Assembly: GCA_017404505.1 (NCBI GenBank)
Contig: JAFRCE010000013.1
Coordinates: 62,001 to 126,000, forward strand
Origin: Solobacterium sp.
Lineage (GTDB): Bacteria; Bacillota_I; Bacilli_A; Erysipelotrichales; Erysipelotrichaceae
Direction of reading: 5' to 3'
DNA length: 64,000 nucleotides
In this document: positions 17,158-27,923 of the stretch, in pieces
Position numbering within the stretch: position 1 is the first letter of the stretch
How the letters are laid out: every line of letters starts with the position of its first letter
The notes under the pieces: generated by a model
What the model saw: only the letters and a program-made list of their open reading frames with translations
Told to the model about the DNA's origin: nothing
Databases searched by the model: none
Program-made: the position numbers and the translations under genes

Positions 17158-17245
17158 TTATTATAGTTCCCTCTTTGTTTTGCGGCAATGCGCTATAATG
17201 CAGTCAGAAGATGTCTTTCTATCAATCATCATGGAGGTTTTGCAT

Positions 17246-18631
17246 ATGATCGTCAAAGCTGTTATGGTACCGCATCCGCCGCTGGCTGTTTCCGAAGTCG
17301 GCCGCGGTGACGAAAAGAAAATACAGAAAACCCTGGATGCCTATCATCAGGCGGCCCGGGAAATTGCCGAAACAAAACCGGAGACCGTCATCATCATTTC
17401 TCCTCATGCCCTGATGTACCGCGATTATTTCAACATATCCAGAGGAAAGGAAGCTTATGGTGATCTGGGCCGGTTCAGAGCCGGCATGGTTGCTTTTGAA
17501 AAAGAATACGACGAGGAATTCACCCATGCCCTTACGGAACTTTTATACGCGGAGGGCTTCCCCGGCGGAACGGAATACGACAATGATCCGCAGCTGGATC
17601 ACGGCACCATGGTTCCCCTCTATTTCCTGAGTCAATATCTCCCGGAAGTCAGGATCGTCAGGATTGGCCTGAGCGGCCTTCCCCTTGCCATGCATTACCG
17701 GCTTGGTATGTACATTGCCGAAACAGCGGAAAAACTGAACCGGCGGATCGCTGTCATCGGCAGCGGTGATCTGGCCCACTGTCAGAAAGAAGACGGTCCT
17801 TACGGATACAAGCCGGAAGGTCCAGAGTATGACGAAAAGATCATGAAGACCATGGGCAGCGGTGATTTCGGCGAGCTGTTCGCCTATCCGGAAAGTTTCC
17901 TGAACGCGGCAATGGAATGCGGTCATCGGGCCTTTGTCATCATGGCCGGTATTCTCGACGGTCTTTCCGTCACACCGCATGTCCTCTCCCACGAAGCCAC
18001 TTTCGGAGTCGGCTACGGAATCATTACGTATGACATCAGCGGTTCCGATAATAACCGTCATTTCCTTGCCAGCTACAGCAATAAAGAAAAGAACCGGCTG
18101 CAGGACAAAATGCAGAGCAGTGACGCCTGGGTCAGACTGGCCAGGGCATCTCTGGAATCATATATCCTGCATGGCCGCGTTCTGAAAGTGCCGGATGGCC
18201 TGCCGGAAGAACTGTATAAAGAAAAAGCCGGCTGTTTCGTGTCGATTCACGAACACGGCGAACTGCGCGGCTGTATCGGTACGATTGCCGCGACCAAACC
18301 GTCACTGGCCAAAGAAATCATCGACAACGCGATCAGTGCCGCCTGCCGGGATCCCCGCTTCTCACCCATCGGAGAAGATGAACTGGAATGGCTGGAAATC
18401 AACGTCGACGTGCTGGGCAAACCGCAGCCGGTCACGGATATTTCCGAACTGGACGTGAAGAAATACGGTGTGATCTGTTCTTCGCGGGGCAGAAGAGGTC
18501 TGCTGCTGCCGGATCTCGAAGGTGTCGATACGGTTGAACAGCAGCTGGATATCGCCTGTTCCAAAGGCGGCTTTGACCGCTATGCGGATGATCTGGAAAT
18601 CGAGCGCTTCGAGGTGATCCGCCATGTCTGA
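17246..18631 (+). CDS. AmmeMemoRadiSam system protein: MEMO domain fused to AMMECR1 domain
   Basis: A 461-residue fusion. Residues 1-275 are a MEMO-type domain related to class III extradiol dioxygenases, with metal-ligand-like His in VPHPPL (near 9), ISPHALMYRD (near 53), LDHGTMVPL (near 117) and GDLAHCQ (near 176). Residues ~290-461 are an AMMECR1 domain with its signature LRGCIGTI near 337 and RDPRFSPIGEDEL near 370. In many prokaryotes these are separate genes; here proteins A and B are one chain. The radical SAM partner starts eight bases before this stop. The function of the system is not settled. ATG 17246 is chosen for GGAGG eight bases upstream. Cytosolic. Confidence 0.88.
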   Translation: MIVKAVMVPHPPLAVSEVGRGDEKKIQKTLDAYHQAAREIAETKPETVIIISPHALMYRDYFNISRGKEAYGDLGRFRAGMVAFEKEYDEEFTHALTELLYAEGFPGGTEYDNDPQLDHGTMVPLYFLSQYLPEVRIVRIGLSGLPLAMHYRLGMYIAETAEKLNRRIAVIGSGDLAHCQKEDGPYGYKPEGPEYDEKIMKTMGSGDFGELFAYPESFLNAAMECGHRAFVIMAGILDGLSVTPHVLSHEATFGVGYGIITYDISGSDNNRHFLASYSNKEKNRLQDKMQSSDAWVRLARASLESYILHGRVLKVPDGLPEELYKEKAGCFVSIHEHGELRGCIGTIAATKPSLAKEIIDNAISAACRDPRFSPIGEDELEWLEINVDVLGKPQPVTDISELDVKKYGVICSSRGRRGLLLPDLEGVDTVEQQLDIACSKGGFDRYADDLEIERFEVIRHV

Positions 18632-19439
18632 AATCGTATGTGATGTCTGTTTCCATCACTGCCGTCTGGCGGAGGGAAAAACCGGTTTCTGCAAAGCCCG
18701 CCGCAACGAAAACGGTCAGAACGTCTGCCTTAATTACGGAAAACTGACTTCAATTGCTCTGGACCCGATCGAAAAAAAGCCGCTGTATGGCTTTTATCCC
18801 GGATCCATGATCCTTTCCTGCGGTAGTTTCGGCTGTAATCTCGCCTGTCCGTTCTGTCAGAACCATGAGATTTCCCAGCATGACGATCTGCCGGTATACA
18901 CACTGATGCCGGAAGAATTATGCGCGCTTGCCCTGCGGCATCCGGAAAGCATCGGTGTCGCCTTCACATACAATGAACCGTCGATCAGCTGGGAATATGT
19001 CTGTGACTGCTTCCGTCTGCTGAAACAGCATGACCAGAAGACGGTTCTGGTAACAAACGGCAGTATGTCAGCCACTGTGCTGGAAAAGCTTCTGCCGTAC
19101 ACCGACGCCATGAATATCGATCTGAAAGGCGATGCGGAATTCTACCGCGAACTGGCCGGGGATTATGATACGGTACGCCGCAACATTGCCGCCTGTATCG
19201 GCCGCACCCATCTGGAAGTGACGATGCTGATCGTTCCCGGCAAGAATGACTCGGAAGAATTCATGCGCAGCCAAAGCCGCTGGCTCGCTTCCCTTGATCC
19301 TGACACGATCCTCCACATCACCCGTTATTTTCCGCGCTATAAATATCAGATTCCCAAGACGGATGTCGGTGTGATGCGCCAATTAAAAAACATTGCCGAA
19401 GAATCCCTGCATCATGTCTTCCTCGGCAATGTGTTCTGA
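18624..19439 (+). CDS. AmmeMemoRadiSam system radical SAM enzyme
   Basis: A 271-residue radical SAM protein. The cluster motif is Cys71, Cys75, Cys78 (CNLACPFC). An N-terminal group of cysteines (C6, C9, C13, C23) may bind a second metal or cluster, as in pyruvate-formate-lyase-activase-like relatives. FTYNEPSISWEY near 115 and TNGSMS near 145 are core barrel motifs of the AmmeMemoRadiSam subgroup. The gene overlaps the MEMO-AMMECR1 gene by eight bases, so both are made together. The reaction is unknown; such activases abstract hydrogen from a protein or small substrate. The last 17 codons also encode, on the opposite strand, the terminator of the convergent ROK gene. Confidence 0.88.
   Translation: MSEIVCDVCFHHCRLAEGKTGFCKARRNENGQNVCLNYGKLTSIALDPIEKKPLYGFYPGSMILSCGSFGCNLACPFCQNHEISQHDDLPVYTLMPEELCALALRHPESIGVAFTYNEPSISWEYVCDCFRLLKQHDQKTVLVTNGSMSATVLEKLLPYTDAMNIDLKGDAEFYRELAGDYDTVRRNIAACIGRTHLEVTMLIVPGKNDSEEFMRSQSRWLASLDPDTILHITRYFPRYKYQIPKTDVGVMRQLKNIAEESLHHVFLGNVF
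19383..19431 (-). terminator. intrinsic terminator of the second ROK gene, inside the convergent coding region
   Basis: On the minus strand CATTGCCGAGGAA (19419-19431) pairs with TTCTTCGGCAATG (19391-19403), one G-U, followed by TTTTTTAATT. It lies wholly within the end of the radical SAM gene. Confidence 0.75.
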
Positions 19440-19446
19440 ATCTGAA

Positions 19447-20319
19447 TTATTTGACGAGCAGAGCTGCACCAACCAGTCCGGCATCATCGTCATACTTTGC
19501 CGGAACGATCAGAATGTCATCGGCGGTGATATATTCCATCGCCTTTTTCTTTACGACATCCATATACCACGGATGATGAATGGCCACTGAACCGCCGAAA
19601 ACATAAACGTCCGGGTCGATGGTATAGAAGATATTTGCGACACCGCGGGCCAGTGCTTCGGATGTTTCCTCCAGGATCTTCTTGGCTGTTTCATCACCTT
19701 TATAGAATTCCTCAAACAGTTCTTTCGGTGTCATTTCCCGGCCAAAACGTTCGGTCGCAAGTCTCTGCATGGCTGTGCCGCTGGCGGTCTCGTTCAGCGA
19801 TCCGGGATTGGCTCCTTTATGGCAGTATTTGTCATCGTTGACGATCATGTTGTAGAATTCCGCCCCGCAGGAATGCGCACCGTGGATCAGTTCGCCTTTG
19901 TATACGTAGGCACCGCCCAGACCGGTTGAAATCCCGATGAAAGCAACGGATTCGTAACCGACGCCGGCCCCGCGCAGCGCTTCTGCCAGCCCGGCCACGT
20001 TGGCATCGTTGTCCAGCCATGTCTTCAGACCGGTTTTCTGTTCCATGTATCTGACGATTTCGAAGCCATCCCAGCCGATCAGGTTCGGCGGATTGACGAC
20101 GACACCCCTCTTCAGATCCAGCGGGCCGGGACTGCCGATGCCGATTCCCTGCAGCGGTTCGTCGACTGATTTGATATAGCGGATGATACGGTCCATGTTC
20201 GCGGCTCCGCTCAATGATCTGTCATTGATCGTTTTAAAGGAATCAATGATATTCATATCATCGTCAAGCAATGCTGCCCTGAGCTGGGTACCGCCGATAT
20301 CAATACCTATCCTGTACAT
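19447..20319 (-). CDS. ROK family sugar kinase
   Basis: A 290-residue ROK kinase. The phosphate loop is IDIGGTQLR at residues 6-14, the catalytic Asp is in LDNDANVAGLAE near 103, the second phosphate motif ISTGLGGA near 129 and adenosine motif VFGGSVA near 242. The sugar-binding E/H region reads HGAHSCGAEFY near 146; the zinc cluster CxCGxxGC is missing, with HKGANPGSLNE in its place. The family phosphorylates glucose or N-acetylated hexosamines. AGGAAGG precedes the ATG by about eight bases. It is downstream of and co-directional with the HPr-lactate dehydrogenase gene, but a strong terminator separates them. It shares only modest resemblance with the other ROK gene at 10240. Confidence 0.85.
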   Translation of the reverse strand: MYRIGIDIGGTQLRAALLDDDMNIIDSFKTINDRSLSGAANMDRIIRYIKSVDEPLQGIGIGSPGPLDLKRGVVVNPPNLIGWDGFEIVRYMEQKTGLKTWLDNDANVAGLAEALRGAGVGYESVAFIGISTGLGGAYVYKGELIHGAHSCGAEFYNMIVNDDKYCHKGANPGSLNETASGTAMQRLATERFGREMTPKELFEEFYKGDETAKKILEETSEALARGVANIFYTIDPDVYVFGGSVAIHHPWYMDVVKKKAMEYITADDILIVPAKYDDDAGLVGAALLVK

Positions 20320-20339
20320 AAAACACCTTCCTCTCTGTC

Positions 20340-20369
20340 AAAAAAAAGCTTCCGGCAATGCCGAAAGCT
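20340..20369 (-). terminator. intrinsic terminator of the HPr-lactate dehydrogenase gene
   Basis: Ten-base arms 20347-20356 and 20360-20369 with one mismatch and a three-base loop; seven T follow on the minus strand. Confidence 0.85.
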
Positions 20370-20389
20370 CTTTTCATACCGCAAATGGA

Positions 20390-21688
20390 TTATTTGCACT
20401 CAGCTGCGCCAAGGTCAACACCCTGGTTGAAGTTACGTGCGTTTTCAAGCGTAACAGCAGCGATTGCCTGCAGAGCTTCTCTTGTGAAGAATGCCTGGTG
20501 AGATGTCAGAACGACGTTCGGGAACATCTGCAGTCTTGCTGTAATATCGTTTACCAGGTAATCATCGGAGTGGTCTGTGTAAACGTTGGCATCTTCGCCT
20601 TCATATACGTCGAGACCGACAGCGTGGAACTTGCCCTGCTTCAGAGCGTCGATCAGAGCTTCTGTATCGATCAGGCCGCCGCGGGCTGTGTTGACGAGGA
20701 TCGCTGTGTCCTTCATCTTGGAAATCGCATCAGCGTCGATCATATGATATGTGCCGGTCGGGCCCATGATCAGCGGTGCGTGCAGAGAAATCAGATCTGC
20801 CTTCTGGAGGAGTTCGTCTTTGTCGACATATGTCAGCAGGCCTTCGTCAACGAGGCTCTGGTTCGGGAAAGCGTCCCAGCCGATAACTGTCATGCCGAAG
20901 CCTTTGCAGATACGGGCCATGCACTGACCGATCTTACCTGTGCCCATGATACCGGCAACCTTGTTGTGGAGGTCGACACCCAGCAGTCCGCTCAGCGCGA
21001 AGTTGTTGTCCTTAACCTTGTTGACAGCCTTATGCATACGACGGTTGCAGGTCATAACCAGTGTCATTGCATGTTCAGCAACTGCGTAAGGAGAATATGC
21101 CGGAACACGGGCAACCTTGATGCCGCATTCTTTCGCAGCCTGCAGGTCAACGTTGTTGAAGCCGGCGCAGCGCAGCAGAATGAGTTTGACACCGCAGTCA
21201 TGCAGTTTTTCAACAGCGCTTCTCGGGCACTCGTCATTAACGAAAATACATACAGCGTCAAAGCCCTTGGCAAGACCTGCTGTTTCAGGAGTCAGACGGG
21301 CATTGAAGTATTTGATGTCGCAGTTGTATGCGCCTTCACCGACATCGCTTGCAAGTTCGCTGAAGAAAATACGGTCATAGTCTTTGGCACCGAAGAAGGC
21401 GATCTTGAGAACAGGAACTTCCTCATATCTCTTCAGTCTGTGATCCAGTTCTTCCTTGATGACTGCCAGAGCGTGATCTTCATCGCCGCCTTCAGCACTG
21501 ATTTCAAGAACGGAACCCTGCTGAGCATTCAGCGCCAGGATCTGCAGGACGTTGTCGCCATTGGCAACCTTGCCTTCGCATTTAATTGTGATCTGGGAAG
21601 GCAGGGCTACGCATGCCTGCGCGACGAAAGCAGCCGGACGTGCATGCATTCCGAGGGGGTTAGTGATTTCGTACGTAATCTGTTTCAT
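20390..21688 (-). CDS. HPr domain fused to D-lactate dehydrogenase
   Basis: A 432-residue two-domain protein. Residues 1-88 are an HPr-like PTS phosphocarrier domain with the phospho-accepting His15 in MHARPAA and Arg17, both at their standard positions. Gap-free comparison with the Bacillus HPr pattern puts Asn46 where HPr has the regulatory Ser46. Residues 93-432 are a complete D-2-hydroxyacid dehydrogenase of the fermentative D-lactate type, opening KIAFFGAKDYDR, with NAD motif GTGKIGQ near 247, the catalytic Arg in NTARGG near 331, Glu in DVYEGE near 360 and His in TSHQAFF near 394. It should reduce pyruvate to D-lactate. No internal start with a ribosome site is seen at the junction; AAGGAGAG precedes ATG 21688. 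The fusion suggests PTS-dependent control or localisation of lactate fermentation (inference). Confidence 0.9.
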   Translation of the reverse strand: MKQITYEITNPLGMHARPAAFVAQACVALPSQITIKCEGKVANGDNVLQILALNAQQGSVLEISAEGGDEDHALAVIKEELDHRLKRYEEVPVLKIAFFGAKDYDRIFFSELASDVGEGAYNCDIKYFNARLTPETAGLAKGFDAVCIFVNDECPRSAVEKLHDCGVKLILLRCAGFNNVDLQAAKECGIKVARVPAYSPYAVAEHAMTLVMTCNRRMHKAVNKVKDNNFALSGLLGVDLHNKVAGIMGTGKIGQCMARICKGFGMTVIGWDAFPNQSLVDEGLLTYVDKDELLQKADLISLHAPLIMGPTGTYHMIDADAISKMKDTAILVNTARGGLIDTEALIDALKQGKFHAVGLDVYEGEDANVYTDHSDDYLVNDITARLQMFPNVVLTSHQAFFTREALQAIAAVTLENARNFNQGVDLGAAECK

Positions 21689-21807
21689 TTTTTCTCTCCT
21701 TAGTAATTACCTACTTAATTATGAAAACTTTGATTCCTACTAAAATGATACTACATTTGAACGCTCAAAAGAAATAAAACCACAGTTGTTTTTTTCCGCT
21801 TTGCCAT

Positions 21808-25820: not shown

Positions 25821-26489
25821 TCAGTCAAGATTCAGAGAGGAGATACGGGACGCATCTGCCGCTACGACAAGATAGTCATTCTTTTCAAAAACCGTGTCTT
25901 TTGTCACGTTGGTACATACGTTCTTCTCGTTCTCCCGCCGGAAGCCAATGATATTGACACCGTAAATCTCACGGATATTCAGCGTGCCGACCGGACGGTT
26001 GCACCAGAGTTCCGGAACCTTGATCTCCATTACGGCATAGTCATTTGTCATCTGGTAAATATCAATGATCTTCGGGTTGATCAGTGAAATGGCAACTCTC
26101 TGCCCCATTTCATTCTCAGGCTGGATCACACTGTCAGCACCGATCCTCTGCAGGACATACTTATAACGCTCGTTGTTGGCTTTCGCTATGACGTTCTTGA
26201 TGCCGAGTTCTTTCAGATTCAGAATCGTAATGACACTGGATTCCAGATGGGAACCCATAGCCACGATGACGACATCGGCATCCTGCACACCGGCTTCCTT
26301 CAGCAGTTCGATATCACGGGAATCCGCACAGACTGCGTTGGGCACATAATCGGAAATTTCCTGCACAAGCAGCGGATCTTTGTCGATGGCAATGACGTCT
26401 TCTCCGGCATTGGCAATCGTTGTGGCGATGGCATTGCCGAAATTGCCGAGGCCGATAACTACATATAAATTGGAATTGGATTCAGACAT
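25821..26489 (-). CDS. ktrA: Ktr/Trk potassium uptake regulatory subunit (RCK protein)
   Basis: A 222-residue cytosolic RCK protein. The N-terminal domain (1-140) is a Rossmann fold with GLGNFGNAIA at residues 13-22 and AIDKDP near 34, binding ATP/ADP or NAD(H). The C-terminal RCK_C domain starts near 145 and includes VKVPELWCNRP-like and GVNIIGFRRE segments. Octameric rings of this protein gate the KtrB channel. It lies 12 bases after the membrane subunit and is the second gene of the pair. Symbol assigned by organisation; it could equally be called ktrC or trkA. A good GAGGAG ribosome site precedes the start. Confidence 0.88.
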   Translation of the reverse strand: MSESNSNLYVVIGLGNFGNAIATTIANAGEDVIAIDKDPLLVQEISDYVPNAVCADSRDIELLKEAGVQDADVVIVAMGSHLESSVITILNLKELGIKNVIAKANNERYKYVLQRIGADSVIQPENEMGQRVAISLINPKIIDIYQMTNDYAVMEIKVPELWCNRPVGTLNIREIYGVNIIGFRRENEKNVCTNVTKDTVFEKNDYLVVAADASRISSLNLD

Positions 26490-26501
26490 GATTCTCCTCC
26501 T

Positions 26502-27923
26502 TTAACCGATGATGATATTCGCATCGGGATATGCAACATGGCTGCTGATTTTCTGTTCAGCATGGAATGCCATGTACAGACTGAGCGGGCCGATTCTGCC
26601 GATGAACATCAGCAGCATGATAATGATCCTGCCAAGCACGGAAAGCAGCGGTGTCAGACCGGTCGACAGACCAACGGTGGCGATTGCCGAGAATGCTTCG
26701 AAAATAATCGAGATCAGTGACGCATTCGGCTCTGACATTGTCAGTATCAGGATCATGGTAAAAATAATCGAGAAATAAAGCGTAACGATCATAAAGGCAT
26801 GCTTCATGAGCGATGGGGAAATACGGCGGTGCCGTATAACAGCATCGCTGTGTTTCTGATTCAGCGTATTCAGAGCAGTCTTGAAAAGCACAGCTGCTGT
26901 CGTTGTCTTGATACCGCCGGCTGTACCGCCCGGAGATCCGCCGATCAGCATGTAAACGCACATAACCAGAAGCATCGGCCTGCGGCACTGACCGATCATA
27001 ATGGTTGAGAAACCGGCTGTACGCAGAGTGACCGACTGGAACAGACAGGCCAGGAATTTCTCGGCGCTGTCCAAATGGCCAAGCGTGCCGCTGTTGGTGG
27101 ATTCCATTAACGCCACCAGCACAGCCCCGGACAGCAGCAGGATCGCTGTCGTACGCAGAACCACGACCGCGTGTTCCGAAAGATAACGGTGCGGCTTATG
27201 AATGCCGTTGTGCCGGCGCAGTCTGTGAGCTGCCAGATCATACAGTTCAAACCAGACCATGAAGCCCAGACCGCCGGTGATGATCAGAAACATGATCGTC
27301 AGATTGACCAGCGGATCCGTCGCGAACATGAACAGACTGTCCGCTGCGAAGCAGTCAAAACCGGAATTGGTAAATGCCGAAACAGACAGGAACAGAGAAT
27401 TAAAGAGACCTTCCTGCAGTCCGAACTTGTCACAAAGCCGCAGTGCGAGAAGAACAAAACCGATCAGTTCGATGGTGACCGTGTACAGCATGATCTTTCG
27501 GATATAACTCGGCACATCATAGAGATTGCTTTTGCCGGATCCGACAGCGAACAGTTTCTTTTCCACGGTTGCCATCCGCCGCTTGTTTCTCTGCATGACG
27601 ACAGCAATAATGGTCATCGGGCCAAGACCGCCGATCTGCATCAGAAAAATCATAACGATCTTGCCTAGCAGATTATAATGTTCCGCAACCGTGATGGTCG
27701 TAAGGCCCGTCACACAGACCGCGCTCACCGATACAAACAGATTGTCCAGATAAGGCGCCGGTTTCTGTATGTTCGTGAACGGCATCGACAGAAGGACGGA
27801 GCCGAGGAAAATAATGAAAAGGAACGAAATCAGCAGAAGCTTCTCAGGTCTGTTGGATTTCGCCAGCCTTTCGATCAGAGTCGTCCGTTTCTTTAAAAAT
27901 GAAAAATCAAAATCCGGATTCAC
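26502..27923 (-). CDS. ktrB: Ktr/Trk potassium uptake membrane subunit
   Basis: A 473-residue integral membrane protein of the TrkH/KtrB superfamily with about ten hydrophobic segments, arranged as four M1-P-M2 repeats. Selectivity-filter-like loops are visible at VCVTGLTT near 92, FTNSGFDCF near 188, LRTAGFST near 295 and IATVGLSTG near 423; the conserved Gly in each coordinates K+. It works as a dimer with the KtrA ring and moves K+ with Na+ or down its potential. It starts with GTG at 27923 with AGGAAAA upstream, an unusual start for the window. The KtrA gene follows 12 bases after its stop. Confidence 0.9.
   Translation of the reverse strand: MNPDFDFSFLKKRTTLIERLAKSNRPEKLLLISFLFIIFLGSVLLSMPFTNIQKPAPYLDNLFVSVSAVCVTGLTTITVAEHYNLLGKIVMIFLMQIGGLGPMTIIAVVMQRNKRRMATVEKKLFAVGSGKSNLYDVPSYIRKIMLYTVTIELIGFVLLALRLCDKFGLQEGLFNSLFLSVSAFTNSGFDCFAADSLFMFATDPLVNLTIMFLIITGGLGFMVWFELYDLAAHRLRRHNGIHKPHRYLSEHAVVVLRTTAILLLSGAVLVALMESTNSGTLGHLDSAEKFLACLFQSVTLRTAGFSTIMIGQCRRPMLLVMCVYMLIGGSPGGTAGGIKTTTAAVLFKTALNTLNQKHSDAVIRHRRISPSLMKHAFMIVTLYFSIIFTMILILTMSEPNASLISIIFEAFSAIATVGLSTGLTPLLSVLGRIIIMLLMFIGRIGPLSLYMAFHAEQKISSHVAYPDANIIIG

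Follow-up and report, generated by a model that had tools for sequence, protein, structure and literature searches.

The HPr domain is known from multidomain proteins such as FruB/FPr and DhaM, where its partners are other phosphotransfer domains of the phosphoenolpyruvate (PEP):sugar phosphotransferase system (PTS), and LacS-type transporters are non-PTS proteins with a fused EIIA-like domain that is phosphorylated by HPr. Free Escherichia coli HPr has been reported to regulate PykF, PfkB, NagB and Adk through direct contact (PMC10305011). The D-lactate dehydrogenases (D-LDHs) FNLDH and ECLDH show cooperativity; FNLDH is activated by fructose 1,6-bisphosphate (FBP) and Mg. Bacterial allosteric L-lactate dehydrogenases (L-LDHs) commonly have FBP as their activator, and D-LDHs of the allosteric class have neither a known specific effector nor an additional domain (PMC4230899). 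Here we analyzed a 64,000-nucleotide stretch of a Solobacterium sp. genome (assembly GCA_017404505.1, contig JAFRCE010000013.1, positions 62,001 to 126,000; hereafter the window), in which a single gene joins an HPr domain to a D-LDH. Full-text searches of 5.39 million open papers found no description of such a fusion, in agreement with a preliminary description of this DNA, made from its sequence, that knew of no described enzyme of this form. The domains themselves are known; what is new is the regulatory link implied by joining them. We propose, with slightly better than even confidence, that the protein is a D-LDH with a built-in PTS sensor, in which the state of His15, acting through docking, would tune pyruvate reduction.

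A single gene encodes HPr and D-LDH

The gene is one uninterrupted open reading frame (ORF) of 432 codons with an ATG start, located where the preliminary description had placed it and encoded on the minus strand. The linker region (codons 83-96) contains no ATG, GTG or TTG codon from which a separate LDH could start. Pfam assigned PTS-HPr to residues 3-79 (E 1e-20), 2-Hacid_dh to 122-423 and 2-Hacid_dh_C to 208-399. Comparison with solved structures matched the first 85 residues solely to the HPr family (HPr, NPr and Crh), with Thermoanaerobacter HPr as the best match (E 1e-15), and residues 90-424 to allosteric-type D-LDHs of Fusobacterium, E. coli, Salmonella and Pseudomonas, with E-values down to 1e-92. 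Both domains are thus present, as first proposed, with best-fit limits of 1-82 and 94-432 in place of 1-88 and 93-432. The G+C content of the two halves of the gene is equal (0.52). The coding features are as follows.

20390 to 21688, minus strand: HPr–D-LDH fusion gene, 432 amino acids, a single ORF, conserved without truncation in each of the 80 best related loci
21443 to 21688, minus strand: HPr domain, residues 1-82, Pfam PTS-HPr; AlphaFold2 model of the domain alone with a predicted local distance difference test (pLDDT) of 96.6 and a template modeling (TM) score of ~0.9 to many solved HPrs
21410 to 21442, minus strand: linker, residues 83-93, of variable sequence and near-constant length
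20393 to 21409, minus strand: D-LDH, residues 94-432, identified by Pfam and by PDB matches 5z21, 5z1z and 4cuj

Distribution and origin of the fusion

In a search of 84,980 GTDB species genomes, each of the 80 best loci carried the full fusion, at 66-99% identity. Among 80 related genomes, 35 carried it, a set that overlaps with the 80 best loci; in one of the 35 a break between two contigs divides the gene, within the LDH part and not at the junction. The fusion is found in isolates, among them Sharpea azabuensis DSM 18934, S. porci, Floccifex porci, KH1T2 and NK3D112, and in a 3.2-Mb genome assembled as a single contig. The preliminary description had named separate ptsH and ldhD genes in related genomes as evidence for a sequencing error, and in all 80 best loci the two are joined. 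An assembly or sequencing artefact joining ptsH and ldhD, for which we found no argument, has a practically negligible probability and was ruled out, since the same fusion occurs in isolates, in the single-contig genome and in dozens of genomes from several families.

A search for such fusions across Erysipelotrichia had been suggested; they were found there, and they also extend to genomes labelled Lachnospiraceae, Oscillospiraceae and Selenomonas. The host records are labelled Erysipelotrichaceae, Lachnospiraceae, Oscillospiraceae, Oscillibacter, Clostridia and Selenomonas, and most come from rumen and gut. Among 295 genomes sampled from the window's phylum, the fusion was confined to the window's order, and in the phylum of KH1T2 it was present in 3 of the 398 sampled genomes. 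All listed homologues above 60% identity have the HPr domain, and those at ~52% or lower lack it. Among the best plasmid matches listed there was no full fusion; all were below 60% identity and covered the LDH part.

The HPr domains of the fusions formed one clade against stand-alone HPrs (100/100), and the LDH domains formed one clade against unfused D-LDHs (100/100), for which the simplest reading would be one fusion event followed by spread.

The HPr domain retains the His15 site and lacks Ser46

The domain has the HPr fold (beta-alpha-beta-beta-alpha-beta-alpha), with His15 and Arg17 in a GxHARP loop. Gap-free alignments to solved HPrs verified the original assignment of His15, Arg17 and Asn46. 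Conservation, here and below, was assessed in 56 diverse fusions. The two positions of interest are:

21644 to 21646, minus strand: His15, putative Enzyme I (EI) phosphorylation site, invariant in 56 fusions, as are G13, A16, R17 and P18
21551 to 21553, minus strand: Asn46, at the position of Ser46, the target of HPr kinase (HPrK)

Besides these five residues, Q24, C26 and L53 are invariant in 56/56 fusions. The G13-x-H15-A16-R17-P18 loop is thus unchanged in a domain that is merely ~53% identical between representatives, and it supplies 5 of the 8 zero-entropy HPr columns (50-representative set). The hydrophobic partner face is also retained (V47, L48, L51, L53 and Q24). Among 17 near relatives, the ratio of nonsynonymous to synonymous substitution rates, a rough measure because synonymous sites are near saturation, was 0.088 for HPr, 0.022 for residues 13-30 and 0.057 for LDH. 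The HPr domain is kept under selection, and the invariance of the His15 loop provides strong indirect evidence that its phosphorylation matters.

The same data bear on the possibility that the HPr domain has ceased to function in phosphotransfer and remains as a module for structure or solubility. Its sequence diverges faster than that of LDH and Ser46 has been lost, as would be expected of such a module; however, G13, H15, A16, R17 and P18 do not vary, and Crh demonstrates that His15 is free to change where phosphorylation there is not needed. We therefore regard this explanation as very improbable.

Position 46 is occupied by Asn in 52 fusions, Asp in three and Glu in one, and never by Ser; in this it departs from the regulatory HPr of Firmicutes, in which Ser46 makes the protein an HPrK substrate and CcpA co-repressor. 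The preliminary description, which saw an intact EI-type site, an absent HPrK target and hence the reverse of Crh, holds for all 56 proteins. Like Ser, both Asn and Asp are good caps for the N-terminus of a helix, and N46 can therefore preserve the helix although the kinase target is gone. The loss of Ser46 is real but not peculiar to the fusion, because the sister clade of the fusion HPr domains consists of stand-alone HPr paralogs, several of which have K, R, A or N at this position. As a separate observation, five second stand-alone HPr paralogs of Erysipelotrichales have Lys46 and a DxKKLL helix, keep His15 and are apparently blind to HPrK.

The dehydrogenase domain, its insertion and the linker

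The LDH part has the D-2-hydroxyacid dehydrogenase fold together with the NAD loop and the Arg/Glu/His set of the allosteric-type D-LDHs. The complete D-LDH of the preliminary description was borne out, the residues being present here and invariant among the relatives, as is Asp272 at the NAD site.

20927 to 20944, minus strand: NAD-binding loop GTGKIG, residues 249-254, with G249, T250, G251, I253 and G254 invariant
20681 to 20683, minus strand: catalytic Arg336, invariant in 56
20594 to 20596, minus strand: catalytic Glu365, invariant in 56
20498 to 20500, minus strand: catalytic His397, invariant in 56
21332 to 21346, minus strand: five-residue insertion 115-119 (DVGEG) in the LDH catalytic domain, in fusions only

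From 44-47% identity to allosteric D-LDHs, the domain is predicted to reduce pyruvate to D-lactate as a cooperative tetramer. The LDH part of the model superposes on D-LDHs with Z ~33 and a root-mean-square deviation of ~4 Å over ~320 residues; the structure search with the full-length model probed this part only. The full-length model has a pTM of 0.77, no usable interdomain error estimate and no docking information. For these reasons a separate model of the HPr domain was made and used for its own structure search.

Insertion 115-119 is present in 56/56 fusions, whereas 12/12 unfused D-LDHs lack it, with 0-1 extra residue there. Lying near the junction, it may be a docking element or may merely reflect shared ancestry. 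A three-residue insertion at 307-309 was considered as a further signature of the fusions and dropped, being missing from some of them. The linker spacing from L81 to K95 is identical in 50/56 fusions, and the linker has a mean entropy of 2.7 bits versus 0.62 for LDH.

Two observations concern unfused homologues. A conserved Cys-rich tail, about NELCYRCGxIExCxKxRxxRCF, forms the C-terminus of six unfused D-LDHs from sister genomes and is missing from the fusions. In one family, several genomes of ~1 Mb contain unfused D-LDH homologues with in-frame TGA, as expected if TGA encodes Trp.

Genome setting and the relation to L-LDH

The window's genome also encodes EI, HPrK and an ordinary HPr with Ser46, so that all these partners are found together with the fusion, which is therefore an extra HPr and not the housekeeping one. 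Hosts of the fusion in general likewise have EI, HPrK and an ordinary Ser46 HPr, and EI was found in all 80 related genomes, the window's genome included. No L-LDH-family gene was detected in the window's genome, the assembly of which is 90.8% complete. Among the related genomes, L-LDH occurred in 7/35 with the fusion versus 35/45 others (Fisher P 3e-7, uncorrected for phylogeny), and the exclusion was also seen within each of two families (P <0.001, likewise uncorrected). The fusion thus tends to replace L-LDH. A more specific proposal, that this is a new class of fermentation enzyme in which PTS state on a dedicated covalent HPr insulated from HPrK directly gates pyruvate reduction, replacing the FBP control of L-LDH, is tentative, and we place it a little below even.

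The presence of other HPrs raises the question of whether the domain serves as a spare phosphocarrier for some EIIA, with LDH as a passenger or as an abundance partner in lactate fermenters that make both together. The intact His15 site would allow this, several genomes have multiple HPr paralogs, and stand-alone paralogs form the sister clade. On the other hand, an ordinary HPr gene is already there, the domain was never re-separated in any close homologue, and no PTS gene neighbourhood is conserved. On balance, this role is improbable.

A proposed PTS sensor acting in cis

Since free HPr is reported to tune enzymes and the D-LDH class is allosteric, analogy favours a PTS sensor acting in cis; a complex of E. 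coli HPr with glycogen phosphorylase has also been solved (9s8k). According to this model, with PTS sugars in short supply and a high PEP/pyruvate ratio, Enzyme I~P would phosphorylate His15, and during PTS sugar uptake the HPr domain would pass the phosphate to EIIA or back to EI. The phosphorylated and dephosphorylated forms, tethered by the flexible linker of fixed length, would dock differently on LDH, and pyruvate reduction would thereby be coupled to PTS sugar flux. LDH would most plausibly be fully active with HPr dephosphorylated. With Asn46 the domain would be deaf to HPrK and would report PTS flux in place of the energy/FBP signal to which ordinary HPr responds; keeping His15 while dropping Ser46 would isolate lactate control from HPrK and CcpA. 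Phosphorylation by EI, docking and the direction of the effect are what we infer for the protein.

In favour of this model are the invariant His15 loop and the retained partner face, the presence of the HPr domain in every close homologue, EI in every related genome, the tendency of the fusion to stand in for L-LDH and the insertion confined to fusions. Several observations weigh against it. The HPr domain evolves faster than LDH, the linker is variable in sequence, and the full-length model shows no HPr–LDH docking. In addition, all fusions belong to one clade, so the insertion could be mere ancestry.

The main rival is a tether or channelling function, in which HPr brings LDH to EI and phosphorylation is only a docking cycle, with no allostery. 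EI frees one pyruvate per PTS sugar, and an LDH held there would remove the pyruvate, regenerate NAD+ and pull PTS uptake forward. The conserved EI-facing residues and the linker, fixed in length and free in sequence, fit this explanation; EI is always present, and in the absence of Ser46 HPrK could not switch the docking off. Sharpea, a carrier of the fusion, also fits, its PTS genes being among its most highly expressed and its D-LDH gene being high in low-methane sheep (PMC5069950). However, free HPr would compete for EI, and the conserved LDH insertion is left unexplained by tethering alone. EI–HPr contacts are also transient. We consider a pure tether unlikely, more credible nonetheless than a spare phosphocarrier. 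The tether and the sensor, both raised in the preliminary description, whose interpretation is supported in part, would require EI to bind the HPr domain.

If PTS state does gate pyruvate reduction through the fused domain, we know of no earlier D-LDH that has a regulatory domain, nor of an earlier HPr domain that regulates an enzyme of central metabolism in cis. The wide conservation of the fusion suggests that sugar uptake sets lactate production directly. The two processes would be hard-wired in bacteria by which the fermentation in rumen and gut is shaped. Kamke et al. (2016) found the D-LDH gene of Sharpea azabuensis highly expressed and 12-fold up in low-methane sheep (PMC5069950). This is probably the fusion gene, because the S. 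azabuensis genome has no other comparably strong match. The effect of PTS flux on fermentation output becomes testable in one protein, and the fusion offers a ready-made sensor-enzyme design.

Expression signals and neighbouring genes

The following signals flank the gene.

21689 to 21701, minus strand: ribosome-binding site AAGGAGAG with spacer, read from the sequence
21745 to 21755, minus strand: probable extended -10 element TGTAGTATCAT, TGTAGTATgAT being kept in most same-genus relatives
20340 to 20369, minus strand: probable intrinsic terminator, AGCTTTCGGC-ATT-GCCGGAAGCT with a T run after it, visible in the sequence itself

The strong Shine-Dalgarno sequence AAGGAGAG sits 5 nucleotides upstream of the ATG, and AGGAG-type sites precede nearly all genus-level relatives compared. 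A sigma-70 scan did not include TGTAGTATCAT among its reported promoters, and the scanner did not report the AGCTTTCGGC-ATT-GCCGGAAGCT hairpin. Inspection of the promoter region by eye for a cre or Rex site revealed no conserved operator, just the extended -10 element. No conserved operon or PTS neighbourhood was found around the fusion loci, the flanking genes varying between genera (16 of the 80 loci were left out of this comparison). The monocistronic setting without conserved neighbours suggests a self-contained device.

A 506-amino-acid open frame (20183-21703, plus strand) runs antisense through the whole fusion gene and is most likely mechanical, being open because the fusion gene has no TTA, CTA or TCA codon. 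Elsewhere in the window, positions 17180-19439 (plus strand) encode a fused LigB/Memo-like and AMMECR1 protein with a radical SAM protein directly after it, which Pfam marks as a cluster of the AmmeMemoRadiSam type, and TrkA-like and TrkH potassium-uptake genes adjoin at 25824-27923 (minus strand).

Comparison with known systems

Of the known families, HPr, Crh, FPr, DhaM and D-LDH come nearest, and each is matched only in part. The allosteric tetrameric D-LDHs (F. nucleatum 5z21, E. coli LdhA 5z1z and P. aeruginosa 5z20; 44-47% identity over residues 94-432) have the same catalytic residues and fold as the LDH of the fusion, but lack the HPr domain and, where compared, insertion 115-119. With bacterial HPr (ptsH; Thermoanaerobacter 3le1, B. 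subtilis 2hid and E. coli 1poh) the fusion shares the fold (TM ~0.9), His15, Arg17 and the hydrophobic partner face, whereas its HPr is joined to an enzyme, carries Asn, Asp or Glu at position 46 and belongs to a separate clade (100/100). B. subtilis Crh is likewise HPr-like with one of the two phosphosites missing, but it is a free protein that has Ser46 and not His15, the opposite of the fusion, which is thus not a Crh.

In FPr and DhaM the HPr domain works among other PTS domains, while in the fusion PTS-HPr is the sole PTS domain detected by Pfam and its partner is a metabolic dehydrogenase, so the protein is not a PTS multiphosphoryl protein. Free E. coli HPr also contacts and tunes enzymes of central metabolism (PykF, NagB, PfkB, Adk and glycogen phosphorylase; PMC10305011; 9s8k), but it is shared among them, whereas the HPr of the fusion is covalently attached to a single enzyme, for which it is reserved. 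D-3-phosphoglycerate dehydrogenase with ACT/ASB domains belongs to the same dehydrogenase superfamily and also has an added regulatory domain, which senses serine by ligand binding (PMC4230899), while that of the fusion is a PTS phosphodomain. The architecture of the fusion agrees with the LacS type in placing a PTS phosphodomain on a non-PTS protein; LacS has an EIIA domain on a transporter, and the fusion has an HPr domain, an expected target of EI, on an enzyme.
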